Of a DNA stretch of 64,000 nt, positions 24,641-61,745 are shown piece by piece (within the stretch, counting starts at the first letter, position 1; each line of letters starts with the position of its first letter). Source of the stretch: Beroe forskalii (lineage: Eukaryota; Ctenophora; Nuda; Beroida; Beroidae); assembly GCA_011033025.1 (NCBI GenBank), contig WFMF01000202.1, positions 1-64,000 on the forward strand. Reading direction: 5' to 3'. Position numbers and translations under genes: made by a program. The notes beneath the pieces were generated by a model. It ran no database searches. It was given only the letters and a program-made list of their open reading frames with translations, and was not told the origin of the DNA.

Positions 24641-25114
24641 GGCTTGGAGAGTTGCTTGTAGTTGTTCAAGTCATGCTGGCCTCAAACAAGTGTAAGGTTA
24701 CTGACAGTAATTAATGGAAGAATCTAATTCAAATGGAAAGGAAATTATAAGCTTTGATAATACAAAAGGCATGTAGTACAAGCAATCATGAATCATAGAA
24801 AAGGAGGGCTGAAATTAACACTACATAGATCGCATTAATAGAAGATCGAAAAGACAAACATGTAATGACACAATAATGAAACAGTTTTAAGAAAATGAAT
24901 AATTTTAGATAAGTAAAAAAATCAAAGAAATCACAATCAATCAATGAATATCAACCCAGCTTAAATTCATATCCCCATCTTCACTATTAAAACTTTTCTC
25001 AATTTAAATAGAAAAATTCCATCCACAATAAATTCGAAATTTAGAAAATAATGAAGCAACAAAATTTTACATAAAAGTAGATCATAAGAAAACTTCACGG
25101 CAATGATCAATAGT
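24641..25114. other. Intergenic, 5' side of the nuclear-protein gene
   Basis: AT-rich; no further exon of the reverse-strand gene and no recognisable core promoter motif was identified. Confidence 0.4.
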
Positions 25115-25824
25115 GGGGGGAGTTTCAGTGTCCCAATTGTCCCAATTGTCCCTGTCCCAATTTACTTTTTTTTGAGTTTGGGACTGGTTTTTGGGACAAT
25201 TGGGACAACTGGGACATTTGGGACAATTGGGACAAACAAAAAATTGAAAAAATTGGTCATTTATCATTTTTTACATTGATCCAAGTTTTTCTATCATTTA
25301 AATGAAAGTGATATTCACACTACAGTAGAAAGTACATATTAAGGTTGTGTTTGTTTGCAGTGGTCAAGTGTTCCCACTTCCCTATCCCAAAAAGTATGAT
25401 AGGATAAAGACAGTGGCAGTTGCAACGCAGCAAGTGCTGCTATGTAACAGGGTTTGAGACAAAAAACACTAAACTACTGCTCAAAAAACCATCATTTGAG
25501 CCCCATTTGACTCTTTCACTTTTGTCCCAAATGTCCCAAATGTCCCATTTGTCCCAATTGTCCCATTTGTCCCAGTCTGCATTCACTTTTTTGATTCCGA
25601 TTTGTTCCATTTTCTCTGTCCCATTTGTCCCAATTGTCCCATTTGTCCCAAATGTCCCAATTGTCCCAGTCCAAATTCACTTTTTTGAGTTCCATTTGTT
25701 CCATTTTCTCTGTCCCATTTGTCCCAATTGTCCCATTTGTCCCAAATGTCCCATTTGTCCCAATTGTCCCTGTCCCAATCCACTTTTTCTTGAGTTTGGG
25801 ACAATTGGGACAGTGACACCCCCC
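25115..25824. mobile_element. Non-autonomous element with GTCCCAATT-word arms
   Basis: Left end GGGGGGAGTTTCAGTGTCCC is mirrored at the right by GGGACAGTGACACCCCCC. Next to each end is an array of 9-bp words, GTCCCAATT, GTCCCATTT and GTCCCAAAT, interrupted by spacers containing TTCACTTTTTTGA. The flanks read CAATAGT on the left (25108-25114) and CAATAAT on the right (25825-25831), a probable 7-bp target-site duplication with one change. There is no transposase. Ser-Gln-Leu or Trp-Asp repeat frames across it are artefacts of the word array. Confidence 0.75.
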
Positions 25825-26007
25825 CAATAATGGAATATAAATTCGAATTTTACAAATACGGTAGTGAATAATGATCTTTGTGATATCTAACTACTGAATA
25901 ATCATGCGAAATGAGCTACAAAATAACAAGTTACAAACTAAAAGCTATATAAAAGAACGAGTTTTTGTGTTAATGTTCCCTCAGTCAGGAATCAAGTAAA
26001 TCATCCT

Positions 26008-28042
26008 CTATTCATCTTTAGCCTTCTCTTTGTATGGGAATAGCGAGTAAACCACTGTTGCACTCAGAACGAGAATCAAGCCAGAGCCAAACGTCCTGAA
26101 ATGAAATTTGGTATCAAATACAAGTACACAAACTAGAACAATTATACCGTGTGAAGATCGGTGCACATTTTAAATTCAATAACAGAACCAAAGTAAAGCA
26201 AAAATGTAGTCAAGATATGAAGGGATATCTTGAACTCTCTAAAATTCAACTTACAGAGTGAAGTTAAGGTCTTGAAAGTAGAATATAGCGATGAGAGAAG
26301 ACAGAAGAATGGACACGCTGGTAGCGAACACTTTCAGGATGTTATCAGCATACTTGACAACCAATCCTATCAATAGCCCGCCGTACGCCTACGATAGAAG
26401 TGGATGTGAGAAAGATTCATTGGAATTAAACCTAAATCAAAAGACTGGACGTCTCAAAGTGGTATAAATGTATTTGTTGCAACCCATTTTACATTCTTCA
26501 GTTTTTATTCAGGTTCGCATCAGCATGTTAACATACCTGTGACACAATGACGGCGACTACAACAGGCTGAAAATCGTGGAATACTCCTTTGGTTGAGATG
26601 TGATCCATTTCCGTTACAAGCACATTACCCACACCCACCACACAGCTACACAACGCTGGAAAGGGGACGAATATAAATGATTTTCAGAAATTGTGCTCGT
26701 TTTTCTTCGGTGATCACTTAAATTTCCCTCCCAAATAACAGTTATGATTTATGCAAATTGATGTTATAATAGAAAGGTGAGCAATTTGGTCGTGTATTTT
26801 TGTCACGCCGAAATGCGTCATACCGAGTTGAATATTCCTGATCCAGACACTGGTGTTAGCGCCTCTCTTCAGCATCATTTCAAAGAACACCCCAGCAAAC
26901 CCGGATGTCAGGCATGCCATGAGGATAGCTACCACTCCGAGAAGAGGGGAAGAGGTGTCAGTTACAGAGGGGGCATCTGCTGCACGCCACTGGAAGGGGG
27001 AGGGGTGAGATGGTCAGCTCAATGAAACATTAGGTTGTGGAATTTACAAAAATAATGGTGAGGCAGACAATGAAATGATTTTGATCGAGTTGTTGCAATC
27101 GCCAACCTACAACACAAGCCACCATGGAATTCTACAAAAGCATCACATCATGAATCATACCTGAACTAGGATTACGCCAACAGTCAGTAGTACCAGTGAC
27201 ATCCACTGTTCCTTACTAATTCCCTTCCTCAGGAGCACTATGGAGAATATGGCAGTAGTCAGGATCTTCAACTGGTATGTGATTTGGTATGTAGGTAACA
27301 ATACAAAAGTTGGTGGTTCTGATAAAACGTTCATAAAATCAGAGCTTAATAACTCGTTTTGTAATTGGATGTTTTTGCGTGAATTCTGGGATCTTATAGG
27401 CATCCTGGCCCCTTTTCACTTGGTATGTAGCGGTATCTAGGTTAGCTAGTGCCAGGAACAGCAGTTGGTTCTGTACAACGTACAGGAAGGCTGGTACCCC
27501 TACTTTTAGCGTGGTAACCCAGTCTTTAGCGACATGCTCCTTTACATCATACAGCGCCTTCCTCGGACCGGTACTGCGGGTTGTTGGTGAGTGAGGTGAC
27601 GTTATTAAAAGTAAAATGATGCCGTCTGATCGCGAGGTGTAGAGTTTGCCTGAGTGGCTAGGTTACATTTGAAATGGAGACCGCCCCGTAGTAAAATAAA
27701 ACTCAGGTTCATGGAATAAACCCCTCTCACCTGAAAAAGAGCACTGCAAGACATGACACCAGCTTCACTACCTCCTGACACAACACCACAACAGGAACAG
27801 AGCAGGTCAAGTGTCGAGCTCGTCGCACCAGCATCACATTCGTCACTGTCTGAGGGTGACATAGCGGTGACATAAGGCAGGTCAAGCATTTAGGAAAGAG
27901 TAGAAGTACAGATAAATCATCTCGAAATCTGCCTACAGAGCTAAAAAAAGAAAAAAGAGTTCAGAGTGCTCTAATTAGAAAAAGATCTCTATATACATAC
28001 CTGTAGAACCAGGACCGCTAAACACACATACTTCATAGACAT
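26008..28042 (-). CDS. SLC35A-type nucleotide-sugar transporter
   Basis: Multi-pass Golgi/ER antiporter exchanging a UDP-sugar for UMP. Eight reverse-strand exons: 28042-28001, 27849-27731, 27573-27420, 27271 (or 27283)-27161, 26989-26824, 26655-26537, 26388-26255 and 26095-26008. The product is 310 or 314 residues, close to the usual length of about 325. Family landmarks in order: [12 protein letters not shown] (first membrane segment), [95 protein letters not shown] and [14 protein letters not shown] with a short charged tail. These match the SLC35A2/A3 branch (UDP-galactose and UDP-N-acetylglucosamine); substrate cannot be decided from sequence. Intron 3 is bordered by an 11-bp direct repeat (see 27284-27430). 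Confidence 0.92.
27284..27430 (-). other. Intron bordered by 11-bp direct repeat (SLC35A gene)
   Basis: On the gene strand CTACATACCAA occurs at 27430-27420, just before the only donor GT, and again at 27294-27284. Collapsing the two copies into one restores [12 protein letters not shown], which matches the family. The extra DNA is 136 bp, including one repeat copy. No AG lies at the second copy, so canonical splicing must run to CAG at 27274-27272, which keeps frame but deletes ITYQ. Confidence 0.7.
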
Positions 28043-28514
28043 CTTGACAATTCTACGTCACTTCCAAGTTAACCCCAGCCAAATTAACAGCAGCCGTCAG
28101 ATGAGAGAATGAGTCCTTATTCTACGCATTAAAACCTAGTGCTGTTTAAAGTGGTTTATATTCATGATTTGAATTGTTTTTAAACGACGTTCCAAATAAA
28201 ATTTGTTTGAATGTTTGAACTGAGCCAGCGAATTTGGGAACATTTAATAACAATTTTCAAAATTTATTTGATACTTTGATAGTTCGAAACCTTGACTCGA
28301 GACAGTTTCTCAGAAATAATACAAAAAGCATTGCAATAAAACTTCGTGTGTTTTAGATGTAGAAAATAATTTGCTTTTAATAAAAATCAAATTAATAGTA
28401 AACCAAGCAGTCATCAAGTTGACTCGTTACATAAAAATATATGATCAGTTTGTTGGAGAAAAAACAAGATGTCGTTTTCATATTTGCTATCAACCCACTG
28501 TATTACAACACACC

Positions 28515-30249: not shown

Positions 30250-33200
30250 CTACTCGGAGTTTATAGCTTTGAGCGTTTTCTCGAACTGCCCGGCGCGTTT
30301 GAGTTCCAGGAACTTCTCGTAGAGTTGTAGGGAGAAGACGGCGTCGTTATGAGCTCCAGGGATGTTGTCTTGTTTGAGGATGGCAGGACACAGGAACTGT
30401 AGAGGTGGGATGGACCCTGTGAGGGGAAGGGGTATGATTGGGGGCTCTGTTGACAAGAAATACGTAGAAAATGGACGGTTCTTTGTCCTTAAATTACTCC
30501 TTGCAACCGTCCATTGTTTTTCATGGCTTAGCAAATACTCAAACATTTTCATCGAATTTTATGCAGCTTACAACAAATCTATGAGTATTCAAATACCCAC
30601 CCGAGTTATGGGGCCGGTAAAGATCAGCTGTGTCAATGTACTGCTGGGCAGGGATGTGAATATTCAGGTATCGTAGCTGTTTGGTTATGCTGTGTCCCAC
30701 AAGGATCAATCCTCGGTCCACTAGACACTTTATCTTGAAGTACAGTATCTTCACGTTTTGGTGACCTTCCAGCGAAGTTTTACATGTGATAAGATTTGTT
30801 TTTATTTCAAGACAATAAATTTAAATCTCGGAGATTCAATATTCTATCGTGTTGAACATCTCACAAATATGATCTTAATCAGCCTTTTTAGACAGAATTT
30901 AACCTTCCAGCGCGTAGTTAGTAGGGCAGATATCGTGACTGAAGGGGACGCCCTCATGGTCTCCCTGGCCCCTGACAAGGACCACTCTCAGCAGGCAGTT
31001 CGGCGGGGGTTCCATCGACACTCCGATCCCGACCAGCTCTCCTTTGGAGAGGCTTTCAGTCGGGGAGAGAGGGATCAGGTTCAATCCCTGCGGGAGGGAT
31101 TAGACGTAAGTTGGAATATTGATAGTTACGCTCCTTCATACTTTTTCCCTCCATAGCTAGTAAAATAAACTTCAAAGTCAAGAATTATTAATAACGAACT
31201 GAATGAATAATTGACTGCATTATTTGTTGTCTCACCGGGATGATATTGAAGTGGGTAAAGAGATCGTGCGGGTTTGGCGTGGTATGGTTGAATAACTCTT
31301 TCGGTAACTTGACTTGTTTGTAAACAATCACACAGGGAGTCTTCCAGGGCTGGCCGAAGTTTGTTGCTTCCTGGAATCGAAAAGCAGTAATGATCAAAAT
31401 AGCGCAACATGCGTTTCAGAGACTTATCTTGGCCTGAGCACACTCACTTCACTCGCAGACAACCAGGAAAAGCGGAAGCTAATCCTCAAAGTATGTTATT
31501 GAGGATTATATAGCTTGTTTTGTTATTGACGATTACATACCTTGTTATTGCAGATTTCATACCTTGTTATGGGTGCTGGTAGCTGAGCAGCCGTTGAACA
31601 AATACCACGCCTTGTCGTCTGAACCTTGTCTCTGGTGGTAGCCTCTGTCTACCAGCGAGTGCAGCATCAGTCCTTGAGAAGCTGCGAATAAATACGAGGT
31701 GAATTTCCTTGACGTTTGACAAAGAGAGGCCTTGAAACGTTAAGATGTAACCTTAAAGATAAAACTTGAGCCATTTAATTCGTTAAATTGAAATCCATAT
31801 CTTGAATAATTTTGAGAATAATCGACTCACTGGGAGCATCAATGAGCGCAACCACCGAGCACAGTTCGTACTCGAAGACGCTCACATTAGCGTTTTCTTT
31901 GTCCTCTGAAGCCAAGCCCCGAGTAAACTGCAGTGAACCTTGCTCAGTGCCCGTACGGATGTGGAACTGTATTATTATTATTATTAAATCATGATAATAC
32001 ATAACAAAATTACACATTATCAACCTCTTATCGTAGGTAACATTGAAAAGAGGAACATTGAAAAGTGATTAACTTGACAGGAATCTGACTTTATAAAGAC
32101 TTTAGGTTGGGATTTCCAATTTAATCATTTTTAAAATGTTGTATAAGCGTGATGCACATTCAAATTCCAATATGATCCCGGACTCTTTATCCTTAACATT
32201 AACAGTGTACTGTAACATTGAACTACATACCCATTATGGGTATAATCATCAATTTTAAGCAATTACGATAATTTACTTTAATTGCTGGGTATTAGTGTAA
32301 GATTGCGATGATTTCATACCTAATTTGATGCTCCCTATATCATACAAGGTAAATTCACAAATTTAAACAAATTAGAGATCACAACATGCGCGACACTCAG
32401 TACATTCAACACTGTGCAGTGTATAATATAAGCAAACTACAGACTATACAGTATACAGTATACACAGAATGTACATTGTATATACAATTCAATACACGTA
32501 CATTGAGCGGCAGCCAGCTGCTGTTCTCCGCCCCGTGACTCAGTTCGCACTCCGAGTTACAGCAGGATAAGCCCTGGGGACACGACTTGTGGTTTTCTTC
32601 CTTGTGGATCTTTATCTGTTGCTGCCAAAACTCAATGTCAACTGGCGCCATCCCTGAAATATAGGAGAGGGACCTTAAATCAAAATGGCGATGAAATGAA
32701 TTCAGACAACAGTGTGATTTCCACTGTTGAAAGTAGATAGACGGCGTGAACAGTTTTAACCGTATTTGGTCCTCAGGGCAATTATCAATCATGAGTTTTA
32801 TGCATATTCAAAATATTTCACACAGCAACACATTTAGCGACACACTTCCTCCGGAAATTTACCGCAGTTGATGTGGAGAATGTAGGGCAGTGACTCGAGT
32901 ATGGCTTTGTCAGTGCAGGGCGAGTAATTCCTGCACCGGTTACACAGGATACGTCGAGCATTCTTCTCACTCTGCATCGTGCGCTTCAGCAACTGACGAG
33001 AAAGGGGATGAAGGTCAAATTCAAGAGGTTGATACCAAAGATGGAGGAAGGTATGGAAAAGTTACGAGGTACGATGCAGGTACAAACACTTGGTATCAAT
33101 AGGACCCGTTAAAATGGACTGATCCAAGATTCAAGGAATTTCTAGTATAGTCAGACAAATAAACAAATATTACGCATTTAAATCAGTAAGTTGCCTTTGA

Positions 33201-36200
33201 GTTTTGACTCAAGTCGACGAAGGTTATCTTGGAGGAGTCAGCGGGGTAGTCGAGAGTGCAGGAGAGGTTGATGCTCGGCTTGTTGAACCAACTCTGCTGA
33301 CATGTCCCGCAGGTTGTACGGTGCGCTACCTGGTAGAGAGGAGTAAGGCGGACTGTTGGCGGGGTAAGGCAAAATTACGACAAAATCCAGAATTTAGAAT
33401 TTATATTTTGCCTAACCCATCTACCTAAATCTTATCTGTATAATCACATTCGTCGCAATAGCAATGTCCTGATATGCAGGGTACTAAGACAGTAAGTTAA
33501 AATTAATAGTTACGACTTTATCACTTTATTGCCAAGAATGAGCGTCTCTTTGAGATGATTTATAGATCCAAATCGGCTAATTCCTATCGCTAACACCGCA
33601 AACCTTGCTGCCGAAAGTGAGATAAATGGCAGTAGTGGGTTGCGGAGGTCTGAGTATCTCCTTACCTTGCTGCCAAAGGTAAGGTATATGGCAGTAGTGG
33701 GTTGTGGAGGTCTGAGTATCTCCTTACCTTGCTGCCGAAGGTGAGGTAGATGGCAGTGGTGGGTTGTGGAGGTCTGAGTATCTCCTTACCTTGCTGCCGA
33801 AAGTGAGGTATATGGCAGTAGTGGGTTGTGGAGGTCTGAGTATCTCCTCATGGAGATGTCTCAGCAGGAATGTCATTAGACTCTGTGGCAGGGTCAGTAA
33901 GTCCTTCCTCTCGATGTGTCGGTCGTAGAGCTGCCAATCCTGGTACTTGGCTGCAGCCAGCTGGTCAAACGTCTGAGGGAGGAGGAGCTGTGTAGTGATG
34001 GTAAACTATAAACTTATAAACAAGTTACTGTAGCGTCAAAATAGTGTTTCTGACAGGAAAGAGTGTGACAATTTTTATACTTTATATTGCTATTGATAAT
34101 TTGGGTAGCAATTAGCATTTTCTATATTTTTGCAGTAGATTCCGATGTTCAACCGAATTATTCATTACCGCATTTTTGTGCGTCTTGATTTAACAAGACA
34201 GTTCATTGCATGTATGATAAATCGTAGTACTTTGATCTAATAGGCACAGACAACAATCTGCACACTTACAATATGTGGCAAGCTATTTATATATGAAACT
34301 AGTACTAGTTTAGGAGTCAAATAGAAGGTTACGATGTATGCTATTATTACATCCCATGTATATTACTGTAGAAATTAAGCATATCAAAGCCTATTATAAT
34401 GCTACTGTCATGTATTGTTCACCAAATGTAGGGGTTGCTCACTGCTGGTAAGCTGGTTACAGATCTATATGTATATATTTACAATAAACTGTACATCGTT
34501 AGAATAGTTGCAATGTGTTGAAATTCTGCAGAATTTGATGTAATGAAAGGCAGATAATCGCAAGTTATTCAGTGAGCGCGTGGTAACTATCGCATTCAAC
34601 ACACCCCAACACGCCTTTAAAGTATTGGCACAAGGTGAATAATCCCCCCGTTAGGGCTCGATTCCACCCACAGTGCAGCAGAGGCCAGCCTCTTGGGCAG
34701 ATTCTCTTGCACAGAGGAGTTTGCCTGATCTCTAGTGGATCTGTTTCCCCTTTACTCATTTAGTTTTAGTTTTCAGTGATTGCAAACTCACATGTATGAA
34801 GTTATCGATGTCAGTAATCTTATCGTCTGCCACATCAAGGGTGTAGAACAGTACTCCCAACTCGCACGCCAGACATCCGCTGTTCTGACACAGGTGAGAC
34901 TTGAGGGCGAGGGAGATGGGCTCAAGGTAGTACAGCATCTGAGGATGTGCATAAAGATTTTAATTATAAGCAGAGAAAATATACAGTACATTCAAATTGG
35001 GGAATTTCGATAATTTGGAGCAGGGATTTTAAAAAACCGGGTTTATAATTGGTGTTATCGTGCAATATAATTTGCTCACTGTGCATGACTGATGTTTGGT
35101 GTTAATTAAACGAGTAAAAATTGCCAGATTTTCTCGAACTTGTATACCGTAATTTGATCCATCCAACCTTTCCTGTTAAGTATTACGTTTCGAGTACTAC
35201 GACGCCAATATGATTCATGGTAAAAATCAACAAAAATAAATTGTTCTTCATCAAAAGACCAAAAGATTGCGCCTTACGGTGGGACAACATGTTTTTTTCA
35301 CACACTTTAGTTGAAATATGGATTCTTAAACAAATTTATCGACCTACCTGCAGTATAGTACAGAAGTACTGGTTGCCCTTGGTGTTGTAAAACACACTGA
35401 ACTTAGTGCGGTTGTAGTTGTGTAGCTCTGCGTCCGATAGAGTTGTCGGGTCTACGTCAACTCGCTGATACACCTGGGAGAGGGATAAGTACTTAAATCT
35501 GAGGGGAGGTATTTGATAAGAATCGTACATCAAATTCACAAAAATTGAAGGATGTGACAAATTACCACAATGCGTATCCTCACTACAGATTTTAAAAACT
35601 GCCTACTATGCTAAAAATACCCGCAAACCCCGCGCCAACCTACCCGCGAACCCTCCTGCTACCCTTACACTTATACCCGCAAACCTTCTCCTAACTTACC
35701 CGGGGTACTTTAGCCACGACGTCCTCCCTCTTCTTGACCTCCTCAGTCCGTTGGAGGAGGTTCAGATCGTAGGGTATGGTGTTCTTGTACATGTTGTTAG
35801 GGTTCGGGGAGTAACCGCCCACGTACTTCACCTGAGAGAGGAGAATCGGTAAAACCTAGGAGTAGTTTTAAAGATTTTGGGCCTATAGAGTGGGGAGAAT
35901 CGGTAAAACAGAAGTTGTACAGATTTTGCTCAGTAGTCATCTCAAATGCCAAGGACCAAGGATCAGTGATTCAGAAAAAAAGCAATATCAGATTGCTGAT
36001 GTAACAGAATTACAGTGAGCACAAAATTGACAGCAATAGTAAGTCACTGACTCCATCTCGTGATGTTCATAAGTCTCTAGCTCTCTAACCATTTCCATGA
36101 TCTCTCTGATGAAATCTCACCATTTTCATGTTTCTGATAAGTTCAGGGTCGATGGGTTTGGGTCGTCTGTCGCCGGGTCGGTTGAACTCCGCCGGCCAGT

Positions 36201-39061
36201 CGCTCAGCAGTCTCTCCGTAGTGTGAGGCATCGGTACTTTGGAGAGACAGAAACTGTAGTCGTCAATCTGAAGTGGGATAGTTCGTGTCAGTATGGCTTC
36301 TGACAACTTGATATAAGGAATTCCTAGATTGTTCAACAAAACTATAACCCTGTCAAGTTATTCTCGTAACTTTTGAAGCATATTCCAAAAGAAGTTGTCA
36401 ATTGAACTCTCTAATAACTGGAATCACGAAACTTATAACTCACGTTGACTTTGGGGAAGTTGAGCATGTTCTCTGTAGGGAAGTAGGTGGGTTGAGAGAA
36501 GGAGTTGAAGGCTGTTCCCTCCTGGGAGGCCAGCAGGTGCAGCACTCCCACTGAGTCCCCGATAGCTGTTTGGGGATGGTTCGGGATGGTTAGGGTTAGA
36601 TTTCGAAAGAACGGTTAAATCAATAAGAAGGGTTATTTTACCAAAAACTAATGTTTCATTGTTTCATCGTTTGCTATTTTGCGAAGATTGGGTTACATCA
36701 CGATTCATGTGGAGTGCTGGAAATAGTAAGATAGTTTAACGCCGATTGCTGACTTGTCAATTATTTGCAGATATTGAAGAAGATTGCGAGCTCTTAGCGA
36801 GAGCTTTAGAAGTGGAGGAAAGGTCGATAGCGTTGCAGTAGTTGCCAGCTAAGTCAACCTCAAAAAGATACTTATTCTGAGGCAGAGCTGCAGTTACTTC
36901 CAGTTGCTGGAACTGCCCGGACTGCGATGCTATCAAAACCTGCACGGGAGGTTTAAGTGAGTTAGTAGTAAGGAGCGATTCTTTTAAGAGAATTGTGGAC
37001 TGTGGTAGTTTCGGGTCATAATAAGGAAGTGAGTCCCGTTGGTAGTTTTCTAAACAGGGGGTGCAATATAAGAATCGAATCGACCAATTCATAGTTTAGA
37101 AATAGATCAAGAAAAAAAATCCAGGAGCATCAAATCTCCAATTCTCAAACTATCCACCATCATCACCACCCTCCACATTCACTGACCTGAGAGTGGTACA
37201 TGGGCATGAATCTCAGCTGAACAGGATCAATAGCGCAGTGTACGGCGTTCAGACTCCTCATCATTCGGAGATCGTAGACGAGGAGGGATCTCTTCACGGT
37301 CATCTCGTTCCCTCGTGAGGCAAACCCGCACGAGACCTAGTGGAAGACGGGGACTCTCGTGAGTCGTGTGATTACGTCATAGCATATTATGTCAATGAGT
37401 TTTCTAGTTTCTGTTCAGGATTGAATAATGCCTCCAATCAGCATGAAGCAGAAAGTGAAGTTCACAAAATAAGAAAATTCCACACTAAATAAATTTACAG
37501 GTTCTATACAGGTTCTATGCAACAAATGTTCAAACCTAATCGTACTTATAAAGCTATTACAAACTTACAACATAGCTACAACGCAATTTCAACGAACCAG
37601 CAAATTATCGCAAATGTCGAAGTCCGAAATGGTGCCTGAATGAGCGGGTATCGTTGTCGCTTTCTTGTACGTGTTTTTGTCGAAAAGGACGATATCTCCG
37701 TCAGGACAGCCTGTATAAGAAAATGCTTGTCAATAGAAGTAAGTACTTTAACAAGCAGTAGGTGCTGTAATTATGGGAATAATGTATTATGTATAGCTCC
37801 AGATACGTTATAAATATACAATACAAACGTAGGCAAATTAGACCCAATTAATTTAGAGAAGCTATTTCTTAGCTTCTTTCTGCACTACGCAAGTCTAAAG
37901 AATTGTTGACAGTTTTCACATTCCACTTACCCATGCACGCTAGACTAGACGTCTCCTTGATGATAACACACCCAGCATCACTCAGTATTATCTCATTGAC
38001 CACCATTTGTTTGCCCAGATCGTACTTTGTAACTGTCTTAGTGTGCCCTCCCAACAGAACGTTACCTGAAATTTGTTACATGTTCACTGTTCAGTAAGAA
38101 GGTGAAAAGATGCTGCGAACTTCAAGACGGAAGTCTGTTAAAATCGCCACTCAGTTTCTTTCTGTTGAGTATGACCGCAAGATTAATCTGTGACACCCTG
38201 TCATTACTTGAAACAAGACAAAGCTTTCAAAACTGAGAACCTGAGTTGGGATCGTCGCACATGCAGCACATCTGAGTCATGTTGGGGGAGGTGAACGAGT
38301 GCTGGGACAGACCCTGAGTGGAGGATAAAACTTCGTATTAATACTTTAATAGTGAAACCAAACTTGCAAACATCGTGAATTCGTAAACGGGAAATTCCAA
38401 CAATCGAAATCTATTCATCAATGCTCAATAGATTTTTACCTTAAATCTGTACATCAAACTTACTCAATTATTGCCATAAATCGGGTATCATACCTGTCTG
38501 GTGTGTAGGTTGAGACGGTTAGAAGAAAGACTGAGGTTACCTGTCTGGTGTGTAGGTTGAGACGGTTAGAAAGACTGAGGTTACCTGTCTGGTGTGAAGG
38601 TTGAGACGGTTAGAAGAAAGACTGAGGTTACCTGTCTGGTGTGTAGGTTGAGACGGTTAGAAGAAAGACTGAGTATCCCTGCCTCGACTGGCAGTAACTG
38701 CACCACCTCATCGTTAGCAAAGAACTTGGTGTAGAGCTGTACCCCACACGAGTAGTAGCTGGTGACGTAGCCTTTCTGTCCTGCTGCCCAGATCAGTTCC
38801 TGCTAGAGGAGGATAGTGGGATGGCGGAGGTCAAGAAAAACGAAGGCAATAATGGTGCGTCATCAAACCGATTTAAACAATGATATAATTACGTCAGTTG
38901 ATGTTAAGATGTAGACAGCTGGTTTAGGATTTCAAATGACTGAAAAAAACCGTGTTTTTATTATTTTCTCTCACCTGTTGGTTGTCGAAGACCACATCAG
39001 AAACCCATCCCTGGGGTTCAACCAGTTCACTCCGAGTGAACCCGAACAATCTCTCTGTCAT
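30250..39061 (-). CDS. PAN2: PAN2 deadenylase subunit with degenerate nuclease site
   Basis: PAN2 is the large subunit of the cytoplasmic PAN2-PAN3 poly(A) nuclease. I traced 22 reverse-strand exons from ATG at 39061 to TAG at 30250, about 1,015 residues (human about 1,200). First comes an N-terminal WD40 propeller (exons to about 36.4 kb: VEPQGWVSDVVF, KRSLLVYDLRMMRSL). The linker contains TTERLLSDWPAEF. Next is a UCH-like pseudo-hydrolase region (LYYLEPISLALKSHLCQ, CLACELGVLFYTLD, CGTCQQSWFNKPS). Last is the RNase-D/DEDD-type domain (RVVLVRGQGDHEGVPF, LVDRGLILVGHSITK, FSLQLYEKFLEL). The normally invariant D-x-E of motif I is replaced (VGIGVSME for VGLDAEF, with about 20 residues missing). 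The motif II Asp reads Gln (SITKQLR). The motif III spacing is shortened (AHNDAVF). The scaffold looks kept but catalysis probably lost. Identity is secure. Confidence 0.93.
30764..30912 (-). other. PAN2 intron bordered by 11-bp direct repeat
   Basis: CGCTGGAAGGT occurs on the gene strand at 30912-30902 and again at 30774-30764, exactly at the two edges of a 138-bp intron. Because the repeat contains AG|GT, the first copy supplies the donor (GAAG|GTTAAA) and the second the acceptor (GGAAG|GTCACC). Splicing leaves one copy and an uninterrupted YALEGHQNVKI reading. This is the footprint expected when an insertion with target-site duplication becomes an intron. Confidence 0.75.
32990..33220 (-). 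other. PAN2 intron with an imperfect direct repeat at its edges
   Basis: TCGTCGACTTG (33220-33210) precedes and TCGTCAGTTG (32999-32990) follows the intron. Canonical splicing (TTC|GTCGAC to GTCAG|TTGCTG) gives KITFLLKRT. Collapsing the repeat gives KITFVDLLKRT, the length seen in other PAN2 proteins. It may be an older relative of the perfect repeats at the two other introns. Confidence 0.45.
33603..33850 (-). repeat. 62-bp tandem repeat across a PAN2 5' splice site (4 copies)
   Basis: The unit comprises the end of the exon encoding TTAIYLTFGSK plus the first bases of the intron. Copies begin at 33603, 33665, 33727 and 33789. The copy at 33789 is the true exon end (AGCAAG|GTAAGG). The next two downstream copies retain a GTAAGG donor; the last has GTTTGC. 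Since 62 is not a multiple of 3, use of a downstream donor would shift frame. Confidence 0.85.
38493..38674 (-). repeat. 44-47-bp tandem repeat across another PAN2 5' splice site (4 copies)
   Basis: Copies begin at 38493, 38540, 38584 and 38631, spaced 47, 44 and 47 bp. Each duplicates the exon 2 end (encoding SSNRLNLHTRQ) together with its GT donor (CAGACAG|GTAACC). The upstream-most copy in the transcript (38631) is the one in frame with exon 3. The others lie in the intron as decoy donors. Confidence 0.85.
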
Positions 39062-39887: not shown

Positions 39888-42746
39888 CTACGTTCTAACT
39901 TGGAAGTTCCCAGCTTTGGTGATGTACTTGACACCCTTGAAAGGTTTGTAATTCTCGTTGAACATATCGAGTCTGTTGACTTTGAGTCCACTGACAGCGA
40001 GCTGCATTATCTTGAATTCCACATGGATTGTTGGGTGGGCTACTTTAACTTCGGATCCAGTTGCTAGAGTGCACTGTAGAGATTTGAATGTTAGGGAACT
40101 GGTTGTAGTGGACATTCCATCGTTAACGGTTAAATGATGGCTTGAAAGGTTAGTTCAACATGACAATGAAAAATCATTAATATCACAAAATTAGTAATTT
40201 CGTAACATAAATATTGTGAACATGAAGTATATAATTAGGAAAATTAACCACTAACCACCTTCAAAATGATCAAAGGGTATAGGTAATCAATTTGCATACA
40301 TATCGTGTGTAACTTACACTGCCACGCATAGTAGGAACTTTGAGTGGTTGTATCTTCCCGATATCCCACCTCAGCTGCTTGGAGACTGGGTCGAATGTGT
40401 AGCTACCCACAGAGGTCGTCATGGAACACCCCGTCACATCTTTGGGCATTGGAACTGTCACTACCACGTTATCAACCTGATATGGAAGAGTAAAGTTTGG
40501 AGCGAGAAAATAGAAAGTGTGTCGAGATACATGGGTTTATCATGAGTTGGTGAGTCCAATGCTCTGTTTGAAAAGTGATAATTCCAGAGTTTAAAGTTAT
40601 AATTTAGATATTCAACTTTAAAAGGAACACTACTTACTGTTTTTCCTAGAGTTTGTTTTGGGCCCACAGTGATGTCAACTTTACCGTGACCATCCTTGAA
40701 GTTTATCATTGCTCTGACATAGACTGGGATTGCAACCTGACTGGGGTAAAAGAAAGATGTAAATAAAAGGAAATGCAAAATACTTGTATACTTTAGTGAA
40801 GCAGTACCAAGTGATAGATTGCCAATATTTCAAAAACAAACTGCCTTGAACAGAGTTGAATCAATAGAATAAGTTATCACACAATTCCAGTCAATTTTCT
40901 AATCTGACAAGGCCAAACTTGATTCTGTGCACTGATGTGATAGCTCATAAGGACAAAGCAGCCATCGGGAGGAATGAAGGAAAGGATCTTCTCATTTTCC
41001 CACCGTTTTAACCTTACACAGGGATGAAATGACACATCGTCCAGGATACGGGGGTTTACAAAGGACATGTTGAGGTCAGGCATCCCAGAAAGGTGGACGT
41101 TGCAGTTTATCTGGGAGATACATGTGTATGAAGTACATTTACAGTAGAATGAACCAACGTTAAGACGTTAAAATTTTGAAACATTTTTGGAGATGGAACA
41201 CAATTACTTACATTTCCATGTATTTCAGCAGAAACAACAGAGCCATTAGCATCAATGATAGCATCAACGTCTTCTACACAGTCAAAGTATGCTTCATTAT
41301 TTGCATACTTGACACCTTGCCGCCTCCAGGGAACGTTAGATAACTGAGATCCAGGCAGCACTGAACTAACTCTGGAGGTAGGTAGCCAATCAGGTATCGT
41401 AGTTAAGTGATTTTATTGAGAAATATGGCCTGGATGCAGATGGCCACTTGGTTACCCAAGCAGTCAGATTACAAATGATAAAAAGTCATGACTATGCCTC
41501 TGGGAAAAAGCAAACACATTCACTCACATTCATTCTTTCATTCTTCACAGTTAATACTCATCGTGATTGATGAGTAAAATATAGCGGTCACATTTTCTAG
41601 AGAATAAATTTGGAACAGATAGAAGCAAATAAAGCTAACCCTTCTTTTCCAGTCACAATAGAAACAGCTTTATTTATAATTGTTGGTGGTTTGATGAGCT
41701 CAGTGAGAATATTAAGTTCTGTGGCAAGTGGGAAACCATTGTCCAGCATTTCTTCAAGGAGCTGAGAAGTTTCTGATCAAGTTCGGACAAGTGAAGAAAG
41801 GGAGCTCTTGGATCAAATTTGCTGATAAGTTCATAAATGGAGAATTGAAAAGAAAGATAGTAGTAATAGCATTAAAAGTATTTTTCAAAGAAACTGTTCA
41901 TTTAGAAACTGCAAGTAAATGCACATCTTAAATACTAATAAAAGGTAACTACTGACTAATCTAACTACTTACTAACCTGATATACAACAATGATATTGTC
42001 TTTAATAGCACTCTCTGTACAGTCATCAAAGTACTCAGTAAAAGTGTCCATTACACGATGCATGAACTCCACAACAAAAAGTGGCTGAACTGAAGAGAAA
42101 TAGTTTGGTTTGTCTAACAAACTGATTTAAATTAAATATGATTAATTGTTACAGCACATAAGCAGTCTATATTTTCAAAGTCTAAAATTCAACTGAATTA
42201 CTTTTAAGGTCTTAAAAGGAGGATTACAAGCCTAATGCAGATTTTATTCATAAATCAATGGTCATAAAATTTACCTTCCATTTGAGCAACTGCTACGAGG
42301 TAGATCTTCTCCCTATAGATACTAATCAAGTAGTTCTTGTTAGCTGTAATAATTGGTGGCACATCTTCTGGTGAACTGGCTTTCGTTTGAGCTTCGAAGA
42401 AGTGGTCACATACTGATCTACTGACAACTGCTCTCCAATGCTTTTCCAAGAAAATATCCCTGTATTAATCAACCTTCATGCAATCATTTAATTAACATGT
42501 ATCTATTTTGACATTCCAAAATACCACAATCTAAAAATTAATGTCAACCACTGAGGTAAGTATGTGCTGTTTAACATAAGCTTCTTTGAGGTAGAGAATA
42601 AGAAAAAAACCTTGGCCAGATAGGACTGAGATAATTTGATTGAAAAGGGGAATAATGAACTAAATGAGTTAAGTTAATAGTAAAATAAGGTCCCAAAATA
42701 TGTCTTACCCTGAGTTGTTGATGAAGAAAATGCTATTTATCAGCAT
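39888..42746 (-). CDS. AP3M1: AP-3 complex mu subunit
   Basis: Medium chain of the AP-3 adaptor, which binds YxxPhi sorting signals for transport to lysosomes and related organelles. Nine reverse-strand exons: 42746-42709, 42459-42275, 42089-41977, 41761-41640, 41371-41212, 41110-40919, 40736-40638, 40476-40318 and 40073-39888, totalling 417 residues with all phases consistent and GT-AG junctions. Length equals the animal family. Landmarks: N-terminal longin domain starting MLINSIFFINNSGDIFLEKH, LLEEMLDNGFPLATE, the start of the mu-homology domain PWRRQGVKYANNEAYFD, NPRILDDVSFHPCVRLKRWE, FIPPDGCFVLMSYHIS, and the C-terminal signature SGLKVNRLDMFNENYKPFKG followed by VKYITKAGNFQVRT. The symbol is given for the family; a single invertebrate copy would be equally related to both vertebrate paralogues. 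Confidence 0.95.
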
Positions 42747-43795: not shown

Positions 43796-45827
43796 CTACT
43801 CCTTAGAGGCAGGTTCTACTTCCTCTTTCATAAAGAATTCAATAATTTCCTCCATATACTCCTCTTCCACAGTTTCTGATCTCAATTCAGTGTATTGAAG
43901 TCTCAACACTTCCAGATCTTTTCTCCTTCTTTCGACGGTAGGCCATGAAGTCATCATAGACAGCACGCCTCTTTTCAATCAGTTCCTTGGAAGCCTTTGA
44001 CTGAGAGAGTCTGTCCTTGATCTCAAAGTCACGTGTATAAGACTTCATGTTCTTCTTGATTGCCTTGTAATCTGAGTCTTTGAGTAATGTGGGAGGCCGT
44101 GGACGCCATTGGAACTGCACAAAGTTCTCTAAACTTGCTTCAAACAATTTAGATCCTTGGAAATTCCACATGGAATATCCATTCTCAACAGAATGACCCC
44201 CATAGGTGTTGGAAGAACAGACATAGCGTCCAGTGGGGTCCCACGCAATATTAGTAACCATGAAGTGACTGGATTCATTCATTAAAGTGGGGGCATCCCC
44301 TCCTATGTCCCAAAACTCTAGAACACCATCAAAAGATATGTTATTCAATCCAGCCAAAACACAATACTGACCTTGAGGACTCCACTTTATGCAGTTGCAC
44401 TTCTTATTGGCAAGAGTTTTACCAATAGGTAATATCTTCTCTCCGATCTTGAAGAAGGAGACATCAGTTCGGCCCAGATCGCCCTGAATAACAGCAAACC
44501 GAGGTCCTTTTGGATCCCAATACAGTGACATAACTTTACTTTTTATTTCAAAGTTTTCGACAGGAATGTCCTTCTCTCTTAGTCTAAAGATTTCAAAAAC
44601 ATTTTCTGATTCCTTTTTGTTCTTGATAGATCTGTCCACTTTGACTGCAAGATAATTGCCAGCTTGCTGCCAGAAGATTTCAATGTTGTTCACATTGAAG
44701 AGATTCTTGGCAGATATGGGTTCACAACTAGGGACTGCCATGATTGTAACCCTAGCAGGGATGTCCTTGTTTTCACTCTGCCAGTATGCAATCCAGTTTT
44801 CACATGGACACCAAACAAAATCCTTGATGTTTTGGACAGCAATCTTCTTGTTATCAAGTAGCTTCATGGAAGGGGTAGAGTAAATTGAGAGGTTATCCCC
44901 TGTGATGGTTGCAAAAAATTTACCATCAGAACTCCACTTGAAATAAGGCCAATAGTTTAGAACAGGTAGGCTGAAGGCTCGCTTATTGAGACATGATCTA
45001 GTTTCCCAGATGATAAGATTCTGTGGGTCCTCTGGTGACACTGGTGTTTTGCTGTATGTGATAAAATACCTCTCACATGGGGAGAACTGAAAATATGTCA
45101 CATTGGGGTGCAGGAATCTACCTACACGAGTGAAATCAGGACCTCCCCATAGTGCAATACCTTGCTTGTGGCACGTAGCCAAGTAGGAGCCTTTAGGAGA
45201 GAACTTAACATGGGACTCAGTCCAGTTTTCTCTTTGCTGGACAGGATAAGCTTGGGTTGGACCACAGCTGTGTACTTCAGTGTCCCTATTTTTTCCATGG
45301 ATAATGGCAAAGTGGTCATGGCAATCAGGATCAAGGAGCCAAGATTTAAGGTTGACTTGGGGTTTATATGGCTCTGGGTGGGGCTCTTCCCATGTTTCTG
45401 GTATGTCCATGTATGTTTCAAAGTCAGATAATCTATTGACTGCAAAGCAATGGTTCTTGTCCAGTTTGTATCCATTACAAGAAGAAATTGCTGTTGTAGC
45501 TACTTGGGCATTTTTATACACAATAAACATATACCCCTTTGTTTTCTTATTATCATCCAAGGGTATGTGATGATTGTCAATGACACCACATTTACCAAAG
45601 ATTTTCAACAGAACATTAGTAAGCTTTGCCAACTTAGAAGAGTCTGTTACAGGGATGTTGTCAACAATTATTACGTTTTCTGTAGTCTTATCAGCCCTAG
45701 GCTTCTTGCTCAAGAAATCTCCAATGAGAACACTGTCATCCATTTCTTCGACTAGCCGCTGAGCTTCTTCAACATCATCCTCATGGTAATTTTGTCCAAC
45801 ATCCTCATCAAGGCATAAAGCCACCAT
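43796..45827 (-). CDS. EIF3B: eIF3 subunit B, intronless, with a 3'-end frame break
   Basis: Scaffold subunit of the eIF3 translation initiation complex on the 40S ribosome. One uninterrupted 646-codon frame begins with ATG at 45827. Parts: acidic N-terminus, an RRM (VIIVDNIPVTDSS to KGYMFIVYKNAQVAT, about residues 50-135), then a WD40-like nine-bladed propeller (SHVKFSPKGSYLATCHKQGI, FSPCERYFITYS, IKWSPQGQYCVLAGL, WRPRPPTLL). A basic helix follows (DRLSQSKASKELIEKRR). The frame stops at 43887 after the unrelated peptide SGSVETSIH. In the +1 frame the sequence continues with DLEVLRLQYTELRSETVEEE and ends EEIIEFFMKEEVEPASKE (stop 43798-43796), the conserved tail that contacts eIF3i/eIF3g. The break is at an AAAA run (43919-43922). 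It may be an assembly error, a mutation, or a recoding site. Lack of introns contrasts with its neighbours and could mean a retrocopy. Confidence 0.93.
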
Positions 45828-46895
45828 GGCACACTTTAGATAACCAAGCTCAAATTTGATTGTATAAAGTTTTGGGAAATCTCCAGAGGGTGAAGTAAAA
45901 TAGTATTGAATTGGAATTGCAAGATTGTCTGAGAAAGCACTAGAGGTACATCACCAATAGTGTATCACAATATGAAAATATATTCATCATATATTCAAAT
46001 ATATTCAAACAATTTCTTTTGCAGCAGTATTAATTGGAGCTGTATCATAGATAATAATTATCATAGATGAATGTAAGTTTCAATATTATTTAACAACAAA
46101 ATTTGGGAATGTTGTGTACATAATATGGAGTTATTTAAGAAGAGATTTTTGTGTGAAAAATCTCTGAAGAGAATTAAACGTTGCAATCATACTTTCAGGT
46201 AATAAAATAAAACAATTATTTTGATAAAATACATCCCCACTAAAGCTGCATCACCATAACTACTGTATTAAGAGTGAGGAAAAGCAACAGCAACAGCATG
46301 GTTTTATTGCTAAAATAAACGATGTTTGTAGCAACTTATTTACATCCTATTTCCATCAAATTAGTGTATCAATATAAATTGATACAAAGATTCAAGAAAG
46401 GTAAGAAATAATTTTATGATCTTGATGATGACTTAACAGTAAATAGTGGGGTTAAGTGTGTGGGTTTTATTCCTTAATTGAAAATTGTGAAATAAGTTTC
46501 ACTGCATCTATAATCAAACAATGAACAAACATCTCAATTATTCTTGATAAAACTAATCTAATAAAGAATTTAACTGAAAGTTTGCTTCAAATCACACAGT
46601 TTACTTCAAACTACACAGTAAAATAATTTTAAATGTGAAACGATGCAATGGCGCCCGCAGCTTAATGCTTGACATTATCAACCACCGCCATCGAGTCGTG
46701 CTCAATTCAATTTCGCCCACCGTGCATAAAAAGCCGCGCGTACGGAATTTTGACACGCTATACCTATACCGGTCTCGTAACTAAAGGTGCTGATGCGAAA
46801 CCGCACAGCGCAATCCATATTCCATTCCTGGTCATGGCTATGGTTTCTAAGCCCGCAGAGGTGCGCGCGTGCGTACGCGCGCCGCGCCGAGTTCC
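45828..46895. other. 5' side of eIF3B and AT-rich spacer
   Basis: Presumed promoter and 5' UTR of eIF3B are at the low end; no TATA or other core element stands out. The second copy of the repeat at 16075-16180 is at 46419-46520. GC content rises sharply from about 46650. Confidence 0.4.
46419..46520 (+). repeat. Dispersed repeat, copy 2 (partner at 16075-16180)
   Basis: TTTATGATCTTGATG, GTGTGTGGGTTTTATTCC, ATTGAAAATTGTG and GTTTCACTGCATC line up in order with the copy in the 16-kb region. Confidence 0.55.
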
Positions 46896-58968: not shown

Positions 58969-61133
58969 CACTAATGTAAATTTCCTTCAGTCATTCCATG
59001 AGACACCAAAAATGATATGGTGTAATGAAAGCTAACACTGATGCACACAGACTTGCAATCATCTCATGGGGTTGAATGCATTTGATGGGCAGAAAATGCA
59101 CCCCGAATCACATGATGGTATGTGTTACCATCTTGGCTTCAATGGCTTCAAGTCCATCAAGGAATTTAAGTATTATGTGGGTCTTTGTCCAGTGTAGGGA
59201 ATCCAAAGCTTCATCTGGTCCAGACAAGATCTGAAGATTAATTCAACTACGTTTACTAAACTACAATCTGCTGAAACCAAGGAACAATGTCCCCATCTTG
59301 GGGAGCTTTTCTCTTGCTAGCAAGGTTGAAAATATCGGCGGGCTGGAAGAACACCGATTTTCATAAAGTGGAAGCAGAAGTAGAAGTGCTATTTCTATCT
59401 TATATGCCAACCATTGTGGCTAAACCTTATCCTCACCATAAACTGTAAGTTTAGGTCGATGGTCAGGGTTATGATTATGGCTTTGGTTAGGAACAGTGTT
59501 CCCACTTCTGCTTTCACTTTTCGAAAATCGATGTTCTTCCAGTCTACCAAAATATCTTTGTAGAACAAATACAGTATTCTCTGTAAAATTCAGGCCACGA
59601 AACTTTCTAACAACTCCATCCATAGTCTTTGACAGGATCCATATAGTGATGCCTCCATCAGAGACCTTATTTGAAGATGGTGATTATCACCAAATGAAGG
59701 GTTTCATTGCAATATATATGACATTATTGATGATTTCTTACTGTATTAAGGATAAGTTGAACTCGGTCAAAATGCAAGTTTTGAGCTTTGGTAATATGAT
59801 AGTATTCATCTTATCTAATCTTATCTCATCTGATGTTCATTTTTTAGCTCTTTTTATCACATAGTACTTAGAGACATGGGTGTTGGCCAAGAAAGTGCAA
59901 GAAGTGTTATTCGAAGGTCTATTGATGAGCAGAATGAGCTCAATGACTTATTATCATCTGATGCTGAATACCAGGTAGACCTTTGATCACTTTTCATGTA
60001 AACTTTATGGTCATTCCAAGTTTCAAATTAATGATATCTGTTGGCATACCCATCAGTTCTATGCATTACATCTTTACATGTTAAAAATACACATGACAAT
60101 ATAAATTCCCTCCAGCATGATTGCATACTGTACCAGATAGCTTTATGTGGGTCAATAATTTTGAGTATCGAAATTTTTCCTCAAATCCACAAATTTCGTT
60201 CCATAGATATCTAAATATGTCTCCTGAGTTATTTTATTTTGAAAAATGAATTCCAGATAAACCACCAAGGGTCAGAACGAAGAGTCAAAAAGAAAAACAA
60301 ATTACGTCCTCCTCACTACCATGGAAGTGTTTACAATTGCCAGAAAAATCAGGATATTTTCCTAAAAGAACTTAGGAATGAGTTAGGGGTAAGTCAATCT
60401 GATCACTTGATAATAGTTAGATAATTATTAACAAAGTAAATTTAAAGCTAACTTATAAACTTCTTTGCTTATACTTTCTTCTCACTGAACATTAGGGTAA
60501 TAATCAATGTGCACTCATCAGTCATCAAGTTACCTGCCTAATTTTCTCATAATTGATTTGGTTTTCTCATAACCAAGCTTCCTATCACATTTTCTATCAA
60601 CTGATGTCGACACCTCTGAGATCGGTGTCTGAAATTTCCACAATACCACCATTTGTACGTGTGTGAAACTGATTTAACAGCATATTATCATCCACGCACG
60701 TTCATGGCACCGTGTGATGGAATATTTCAGAATGATTATCATTTCTCGAGGTCGCGACACCTGTATAATACTGACTACCATCTGACAAGTATCATACCCA
60801 CAGATCGATAAGGAACTTCAAGACCTCACTCCAGAGCACACATCCCCTCTCTCTTCTCTCTTCAGTGACCCTGATAAGATGAAGATATGGCTGGTGTTCA
60901 TAGATGCAAATGAGAATGATCAGTGTGAAATGTAAGATCCTTAACAACCTGTTTACTTAGTGGACTAGGGTATTAAAATGTTTCAAATTATGCAATTTGT
61001 CTGTGTTCAAATTATTAGATATTAATAATTTAATTCTTATTATTCAGCAGATTTCATCAAAATATTAAATCCAAATGCCCTATGGATTACGGTAATATAC
61101 AATCATACACTCTTTGTTTGCAAGAAGGAGGTG

Positions 61134-61745
61134 ATGGAAGGAAGCAAGGAGCAGATCAAGCAGGTTCAGTCATCGCTACAGACGGAGATAAAGAGCTACA
61201 GAGATGCTGTCTGTTCGCAGAAGAGTTCCGAGTGTGACGAGGATCAGATCACAGTTCAAGATGTTAAGGAAGCAGTGAAAACCGTGACAGAAGATAGCGC
61301 CAGGAGCAAAAACTTCATGATATTCGGACTTGAAGAGAAGGGTAACCTCAAGACTAGTGTGACTGGACTATTGAAGCAACTAGGAGAACTGCCACATATC
61401 GAGAACTGTGAACGGATAGGACGAAGGGAACCGGATTCAGCACCCAAACCTGTTAAGGTAACATTGAGCAGCGCCAGTTCTGTGGAGTCCATGTTGAGGA
61501 GATCTCATCTGTTACGAGGAGACAAGGGATACGACCCAGTGTACATCGGACCAGACAGATCTGAAGAAGAGAGGAAAGCTCACAGAGAACTTGTTCACAA
61601 TCTGAGGAGGAAAATCAAAGAAGAGCCAGAGAGTTATCACACCATCAGAAAGGACCGGATCATCAGCTTCCCGAAGACGAAGGACAGTCCCCAATATCAA
61701 CACCAGGCTACAAAAAAAGGAAACTCACCTCCACCCCCAAGATAG
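61134..61745 (+). CDS. LINE ORF1-type RNA-binding protein
   Basis: A 203-codon intact frame. The first part (MEGSKEQIKQVQSSLQTEIK onward) is predicted coiled-coil. The middle contains TEDSARSKNFMIFGLEEKGN, the strand motif of the transposase-22/L1-ORF1-like fold, then NCERIGRREPDSAPKPVKVT and RSHLLRGDKGYDPVYIGPDR. A basic HNLRRKIKEEP helix follows, then a Pro-rich end. Such proteins bind LINE RNA as nucleic-acid chaperones. The intact frame suggests a recent insertion. Intron position and strand match the host gene copy, but it is not part of it. Confidence 0.75.
   Translation: MEGSKEQIKQVQSSLQTEIKSYRDAVCSQKSSECDEDQITVQDVKEAVKTVTEDSARSKNFMIFGLEEKGNLKTSVTGLLKQLGELPHIENCERIGRREPDSAPKPVKVTLSSASSVESMLRRSHLLRGDKGYDPVYIGPDRSEEERKAHRELVHNLRRKIKEEPESYHTIRKDRIISFPKTKDSPQYQHQATKKGNSPPPPR

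Follow-up and report, generated by a model that had tools for sequence, protein, structure and literature searches.

Background

Can a PAN2 protein lose its nuclease while the rest of the molecule is kept? PAN2 initiates the shortening of messenger RNA tails, as catalytic subunit of the PAN2-PAN3 deadenylase. Conserved cytoplasmic deadenylation is ascribed to two complexes, PAN2-PAN3 and CCR4-NOT (PMC4158885), and PAN2-PAN3 favours long PABP-coated tails (PMC10590902). The question is raised by a locus of the ctenophore Beroe forskalii, carried by contig WFMF01000202.1 of assembly GCA_011033025.1, of which positions 1 to 64,000 of the forward strand were analysed (64,000 nucleotides, hereafter the window). 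An earlier note, made from these letters alone, had read there a PAN2 gene with a dismantled exonuclease active site, to be regarded as scaffold only.

Gene structure and domain architecture

The PAN2 coding span was delimited by an exon map and by phmmer comparison with human PAN2, and occupies positions 30250..39061 of the minus strand, on which all the gene features given below are located. It comprises 22 exons and encodes 1020 amino acids in the model used for searches, or 1026 when a GC donor is used for intron 14; the 1020-codon model is free of internal stops and frameshifts. Over residues 24-1010 the protein matches PDB chain 9qtu_C (E 2.2e-114), which we take to be human PAN2, and other PAN2 chains match it more weakly; the source organisms of most other PDB chains are likewise assumed here. 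The score is 387 bits to human PAN2 versus 109 bits to yeast PAN2, the latter corresponding to PDB 6R5K (chain 6r5k_A, S. cerevisiae; PMC10590902).

Exons 1-6 (37187..39061) encode the first WD40 portion, identified by PF20770 PAN2_N at residues 20-302 (E 5e-45; 154.4 bits for a cut-off of 26.6). The remaining WD40 and the putative PAN3-interacting linker (LLSDWPAEFNRPGDRRPKPIDPELIRNMK), placed by alignment to human PAN2, are found in exons 7-9 (36121..36939). This linker, located between the WD40 and UCH parts, was compared with the human protein alone, with no fungal counterpart, and is identical at 33 of 70 aligned residues (47.1 %). Exons 10-19 (31236..35831) encode the end of the linker and the UCH-like pseudo-hydrolase domain, which matches PF13423 UCH_1 at residues 458-784 (E 2e-47; 162.8 bits for a cut-off of 22.2).

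The last three exons had been assigned to the nuclease domain in the earlier note. The RNase_T domain gave no Pfam match in the PAN2 protein at E up to 1; when the C-terminal 223 residues were compared with the PDB, the best match was human PAN2 (9qtu_C, E 1.6e-11). As these residues still match PAN2 exonucleases, the domain is recognisable and the assignment holds, as do the count of 22 exons, the retention of the rest of the gene and the presence of the quoted strings VGIGVSME, LVGHSITKQL, AHND and LQLYEKFLEL. An Rfam scan of the whole window returned no match.

Residues of the exonuclease active site

The exonuclease domain was aligned to human, N. crassa and yeast PAN2 by 12 pairwise alignments, by three MAFFT modes and against a three-sequence profile. 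The clearest change concerns motif II, encoded by exon 21 (30601..30765), where VGHSITKQL faces the GHGLxxDF of other PAN2s. GHGLxxDF has become GHSITKQL, and the Asp is a Gln in 12/12 pairwise alignments, exactly as first noticed. Yeast Pan2 D1020A is reported to be inactive and to give longer tails in vivo, and human D1087A, the same mutant, is inactive as well (PMC6547884). Because the motif II Asp is lost and these single mutants are inactive, the encoded exonuclease is predicted to be inactive, probably on account of motif II alone. The set of catalytic DEDD(h) residues is incomplete, the motif II Asp being absent under every reading.

Motif I is more difficult to place. The corresponding segment of exon 20 (30904..31087) reads NIIPGLNLIPLSPTESLSKGELVGIGVSMEPPPNCLL, devoid of Asp in the best gene model, and is followed by RVVLVRGQGDHEGVPF and by a 17-residue deletion. 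Four pairings compete for it in the pairwise alignments. That of SPTE with IDTE, which keeps the Glu, replaces Asp by Pro and opens a gap of about 6 residues, was obtained in 4/12 alignments, all of them with N. crassa, and in 3/3 MAFFT modes; the LNLIPL pairing was obtained in 5/12 pairwise alignments, the LSP pairing in 1/12 and the LDA/IGV pairing in 2/12. The segment stays unaligned in the three-sequence profile. The register of motif I is thus uncertain, and whether its Glu is kept would depend on the alignment; in published work, mutation E912A in motif I abolished nuclease activity (PMC4158885). Of what had been proposed for this motif, the lack of Asp in the modelled segment stands, but the pairing of VGLDAEF with VGIGVSME is that of the 2/12 alignments.

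The 17 residues absent after VPFSHD include the position of yeast Tyr975, a residue that stacks on the terminal adenine (PMC7116106) and whose position is occupied by Trp in N. crassa. About 10 residues are inserted ahead of the SLRFLAW segment. Neither change was mentioned in the earlier note.

Motif III is encoded by exon 22 (30250..30446, including the stop codon) and reads AHNDAVFSLQLYEKFLEL. Its Asp is kept in 12/12 pairwise alignments (NDAVFSLQLY versus EDARTALQLY), and its His is either kept with three residues missing (8/12) or replaced by Pro (4/12). The collapse of this motif to AHND, as first described, is therefore accurate for the spacing or identity of the His but not for the Asp. 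Likewise, the claim that at least three of the four acids were gone goes too far: the motif II Asp is always lost and the motif I Asp is lost in the best model, but the motif III Asp is retained and the motif I Glu is kept in 4/12 alignments. A single-sequence AlphaFold2 model of the exonuclease alone was uninformative (mean pLDDT 34).

Divergence of the exonuclease and selection

The exonuclease is the best-conserved part in the three active PAN2s that were compared, with identities of 109/214 (50.9 %) between human and N. crassa, 98/207 (47.3 %) between human and yeast and 99/207 (47.8 %) between N. crassa and yeast. When the Beroe exonuclease is aligned with that of human, 62/179 positions are identical (34.6 %) and 70 columns contain gaps. 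Elsewhere in the protein the picture differs: the WD40 identity between Beroe and human is 107/324 (33.0 %), versus 79/328 for human-yeast and 88/332 for human-Chaetomium, and the two UCH parts give 67/218 and 28/83 (33.7 %), versus 66/232 and 28/79 (35.4 %) for human-N. crassa. Since the exonuclease stands at 34.6 % versus 47-51 % in active PAN2s, the other domains being level or better, the decay is domain-specific and confined to the exonuclease, with WD40 and UCH about as near to human as those of fungi are.

Within the exonuclease, 77 columns carry one and the same residue in these three active PAN2s (human, N. crassa, yeast), and 36-37 of them are kept in Beroe: 4 of the 8 functional columns and 32-33 of the 69 others. 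Functional and other columns have been lost at about the same rate, which argues that the active site was not lost preferentially and that the whole domain is relaxed. This similarity in rate favours the main competing explanation, which we consider rather unlikely and in which the exonuclease or the whole gene is relaxed and drifting to loss, as an early unitary pseudogene or with a passive C-terminal tail, the domain having acquired no particular non-catalytic function. The deletions, the insertion and the lost spacing, scattered across the exonuclease, are also what drift would produce, and a D-x-E stretch of intron 19, described below, could be the remnant of a dropped-out motif I exon. 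Against such drift stand 1020 codons free of stops and frameshifts, and WD40 and UCH domains that resemble human about as much as those of fungal PAN2s.

The drift of the 181-codon stretch was further simulated with substitutions only, indels being left out. Under this scheme the stretch stayed stop-free in 172/400 runs at 90 % identity, 75/400 at 80 % and 39/400 at 70 %, and in only 18/400 and 10/400 at 60 % and 55 %, the last two values arguing against drift. Base composition is of little help: GC3 is 0.654 in exons 20-22 and 0.660 in exons 1-19, for an intron GC of 0.367, but GC3 still stands at about 0.60 after simulated drift, which makes the unchanged GC3 of exons 20-22 a weak discriminator. 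Purifying selection may well act on the exonuclease domain, judging from its open coding sequence.

The introns of the gene were also considered in relation to drift. Of the 21 introns, 19 are GT-AG, one is GC-AG (intron 14) and one has no GT/GC solution at full length (intron 7). Intron 7 (36566..36797) has a homology-fitting junction of CT-AG type, CTCG/CTAAGAGC...CAAACAG/CTATCGG; canonical splicing is not obtained at full length, and a GC donor combined with the modelled acceptor costs 16 WD40 residues. Intron 14 (32993..33194) is best described as GC-AG (AAAG/GCAACTTA), a good solution that supersedes TT-AG. Intron 20 (30766..30903, 138 bp) has canonical ends, a poor acceptor and an 11-bp direct repeat, CGCTGGAAGGT, at both ends; it was rejected as a repeated element, being present as a single copy in the assembly.

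The lack of a GT/GC donor at full length in intron 7 would fit a decaying gene, but such an intron interrupts CNOT7 too: intron 1 of that gene has no GT/GC solution and is flanked by 11-bp direct repeats. Unusual introns therefore occur outside PAN2 and are no proof of a dead gene, and we dropped them as a mark of a dying PAN2. GT donors were otherwise found in 7/7 introns of the neighbouring AP-3 mu-like gene, in 5/6 introns of CNOT7 and in 6/7 introns of an SLC35-like gene (one with an unlikely acceptor), the seventh of the latter being GT-AG by reading.

Intron 19 and a possible motif I exon

Intron 19 (31088..31235, 148 bp) contains, immediately upstream of exon 20, an unused frame that reads FSSLLIILDFEVYFTSYGG at about 31182 and includes LLIILDFEVYF, a candidate for a motif I exon overlooked by the model. 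The 21 introns of the gene contain four D-x-E in all (introns 11, 16, 19 and 21), of which only that of intron 19 is preceded by a hydrophobic run. When intron 19 was shuffled 4000 times, four hydrophobic residues followed by D-x-E came up in 8 of the shuffled sequences, for a pattern that was chosen post hoc.

In order to evaluate this candidate, splice readings that include the stretch between two introns were enumerated. None of the 272 solutions uses the strong GTGAGA donor of exon 19. The VRGQG is preserved in 153 solutions, all of them from other donors inside exon 19; 104 of these 153 exceed the base model, the best one scoring 65.9 bits versus 64.1 (a gain of 1.8). With joins that are free of splice-site constraints the gain is at most 2.5 bits (67.9 versus 65.4), and 18/54 joins lie above exon 20 alone. 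In the best two-intron reading the introns measure 98 and 89 nt, versus 138 nt for the shortest modelled PAN2 intron, and the Asp-to-RGQG spacing is 39 residues, versus 36 in active PAN2s by hand count.

Three origins may be considered for LLIILDFEVYF: a genuine exon, what is left of a former motif I, or chance. In the first case, part of the loss seen at the active site would stem from the gene model. A hidden D-x-E mini-exon had been named beforehand as the result that would overturn the reading of a dismantled site. A candidate for it does exist but finds little support, the best splicing gain being 1.8 bits; even if spliced in, the stretch would restore motif I at most, and motif II would stay lost.

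These data bear directly on the improbable case of an error in the gene model or in the assembly that would hide a more intact exonuclease, for instance through an exon carrying LLIILDFEVYF. The location of the stretch at the position of motif I, its rarity in shuffles, a spacing close to that of active PAN2s and the existence of introns without GT or GC in this genome are all compatible with such an error. To accept it, however, weak exon 19 donors have to be preferred over the strong GTGAGA for a gain of at most 1.8 bits, with both implied introns below the 138-nt minimum of the gene model. The change of Asp to Gln in motif II is moreover a plain substitution within one exon, and the DNA of exons 19-22 is present as a single copy, with no second copy or haplotype in the assembly.

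It is very improbable that the exonuclease is still active through an unusual site made of the motif III Asp, nearby residues and either the Glu of motif I or the D-x-E found in intron 19: retention of this Glu in 4/12 alignments and of the motif III Asp in 12/12 would allow it, but both the motif II Asp and the Tyr975 loop are missing, the His-Asp spacing is lost, and a single motif II mutant is reported dead in both yeast and human (PMC6547884).

Search for a second PAN2

The assembly was searched with two Pfam models and with two segments of human PAN2, and no second PAN2 was found among the matches read. For PF20770 PAN2_N, 2/2 matches correspond to the known PAN2 gene. PF13423 UCH_1 gave 14 matches, of which two belong to the PAN2 gene and six, read by eye, look like other proteins, one being USP9X-like (L009) and the others USP-like (L010-L013 and L015); outside those assigned are L016, for which the matched frame is doubtful, and five matches at E 0.01 to 0.055. 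Ten RNase_T matches were rejected since they look, by eye, like other exonuclease types, presumably ERI1/ERI2-type, REXO4-like, another REXO-like, REXO2-like and exonuclease I-like. The human exonuclease query retrieved a REXO-type gene (E 6.7e-10), a REXO4-like gene (3.6e-7) and the PAN2 gene (8.2e-5 and 0.53), one further weak match (E 0.66) lying outside those read. The human WD40-linker query retrieved the PAN2 gene three times, with one further match (E 0.72) also outside those read.

A CAF1 family search of the assembly missed CNOT7 (its matches are presumably a PNLDC1/PARN-like gene and a TOE1-like gene), which was then recovered with the human protein as query; single searches can therefore miss exon-split genes. 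A second active PAN2 elsewhere, an alternative raised in the earlier note, found no support, and its presence in the organism, absent from the assembly or missed, seems to us very improbable: a single assembly was searched, the CAF1 search missed exon-split CNOT7 and eight weak matches stand unassigned (six for UCH_1, that at E 0.66 for the exonuclease and that at E 0.72 for the WD40-linker), but both Pfam models and both human segments led to one PAN2 among the matches read, and the recovery of CNOT7 shows that a human query detects conserved exon-split exonucleases in this genome.

PAN3 and CCR4-NOT components

PAN3 is present as an open frame of 588 amino acids, with PF18101 (Pan3_PK) at its C-terminal end (E 4.3e-42) and a CCCH-type finger recognised by eye at its N-terminal end. 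CNOT7 is represented by seven exon matches, 47-75 % identical to human, in which the motif residues are readable, motif I being located at the unusual intron 1. The CAF1-binding domain of CNOT1 is also present in the assembly. In other species, the zinc finger of PAN3 binds poly(A) and the linker of PAN2 binds the PAN3 dimer (PMC4158885).

Discussion

Our analysis points to a single PAN2 orthologue in the assembly searched, whose C-terminal DEDD exonuclease would be a pseudonuclease, a reading that we put at a probability of about 0.5. On this basis the gene should be named a PAN2 pseudonuclease candidate and not a deadenylase, because it is a PAN2 by homology and architecture but lacks the catalytic residue of motif II under every reading.

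Compared with ordinary PAN2 (9qtu_C, 6r5k_A), the Beroe protein has the same order of domains (WD40, linker, UCH-like and DEDD-type C-terminus) and near full-length homology. It differs by the Gln of motif II, the absence of the motif I Asp in the best model, the missing Tyr975 loop and the changed spacing of motif III. Inactive folds are already structural parts of this complex, namely the UCH-like domain of PAN2 and the pseudokinase of PAN3; their inactivity is an ordinary feature of PAN2-PAN3, whose exonuclease is active (PMC4158885).

Two other cases of inactivated RNases may be compared with this one. Metazoan Maelstrom likewise presents, in animals, a DEDD-type fold devoid of catalytic residues, but it belongs to a different family, has a structural zinc site and has been shown to bind RNA (PMC4408791), whereas the Beroe PAN2 is known from its sequence alone. 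Ssd1 and other fungal Dis3L2 pseudonucleases are orthologues of 3'-5' RNases in which the active site is dead and other domains are kept; they belong to the RNase II family and result from at least four losses across fungi (PMC8097288), whereas the PAN2 case comes from one genome. A report of a naturally catalytically dead PAN2 was not found in the open-access literature, most subscription journals being outside the scope of this search.

If the pseudonuclease reading is correct, the PAN2 protein would be made and would bind the PAN3 dimer via its linker. Together with the poly(A)-binding zinc finger of PAN3, the complex would stay on long poly(A)-PABP particles, where PAN2 would be unable to hydrolyse the tail. 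CCR4-NOT would have to take over bulk deadenylation, leaving PAN2-PAN3 on the tail as a platform that does not cut, or as a competitor. Such an assembly would consist entirely of pseudoenzymes, i.e. a pseudo-hydrolase, a pseudokinase and a pseudonuclease.

The idea of a scaffold-only PAN2 can thus be retained in part. Loss of the nuclease is supported by motif II, and a scaffold role is suggested indirectly by the retained domains and by the presence of PAN3, CNOT1 and CNOT7, but drift of the whole domain remains a rival to it, with 4/8 functional and 32-33/69 other columns kept. More tentatively, an animal lineage may have abandoned PAN2 catalysis and kept PAN2-PAN3 as a non-enzymatic binder of poly(A) particles, deadenylation being carried out by CCR4-NOT alone; we regard this wider scenario as possible rather than probable.

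Maelstrom (PMC4408791) and the Ssd1/Dis3L2 proteins (PMC8097288) are described as RNases that can lose catalysis and retain other roles. For PAN2-PAN3, uses beyond cutting are hard to separate from the enzymatic role. A natural PAN2 in which the nuclease is gone and the other parts are kept would make a non-cutting role directly testable and, under the wider scenario of an animal lineage relying on CCR4-NOT alone, the trimming of long tails usually ascribed to PAN2 would be missing by nature and not by laboratory mutation.

Genes and repeats in the window

PAN2 (minus strand) is flanked by two genes on the same strand, one resembling an AP-3 mu subunit gene (39891-42464) and the other resembling that of an SLC35-type nucleotide-sugar transporter (26011-28057); the introns examined in both neighbours have GT donors. 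A frame of 687 codons without interruption, resembling eIF3B, lies at 43890-45950 (-). Long uninterrupted frames were likewise seen in PAN3 and in a USP9X-like gene elsewhere in this genome, whereas PAN2 is split into 22 exons. Short repeats of the GGGACAATTGGGAC type are dense on both strands at 25100-25830, and a 238-codon frame at 61029-61742 (+) was judged by eye to be similar to a LINE ORF1-type protein.

Exonuclease domains elsewhere in the assembly

Loci L003 and L004 (G000:C692:80255-81388) lie in one open frame of 416 codons carrying two tandem ERI1-type exonuclease domains.

Introns of PAN2 and CNOT7

Tandem copies, 92-100% alike, were observed in PAN2 intron 2 (38491-38673) and intron 13 (33602-33848), where they take in the end of the preceding exon together with the donor site. 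For PAN2 intron 7 (36566-36797), CT-AG was the only junction agreeing with protein homology. CNOT7, the CCR4-NOT exonuclease gene at locus L034 of the same assembly, has its intron 1 (about 411-663 of that locus) at the position of motif I, and no GT or GC donor solution was found for this intron.

Direct repeats of 11 bp stand at both ends of CNOT7 intron 1 (AGATACAGAAT) and of PAN2 intron 20 (30766-30903; CGCTGGAAGGT), and no further copies of the latter intron were found in the assembly. These end repeats look as if both introns had been inserted with target-site duplication.
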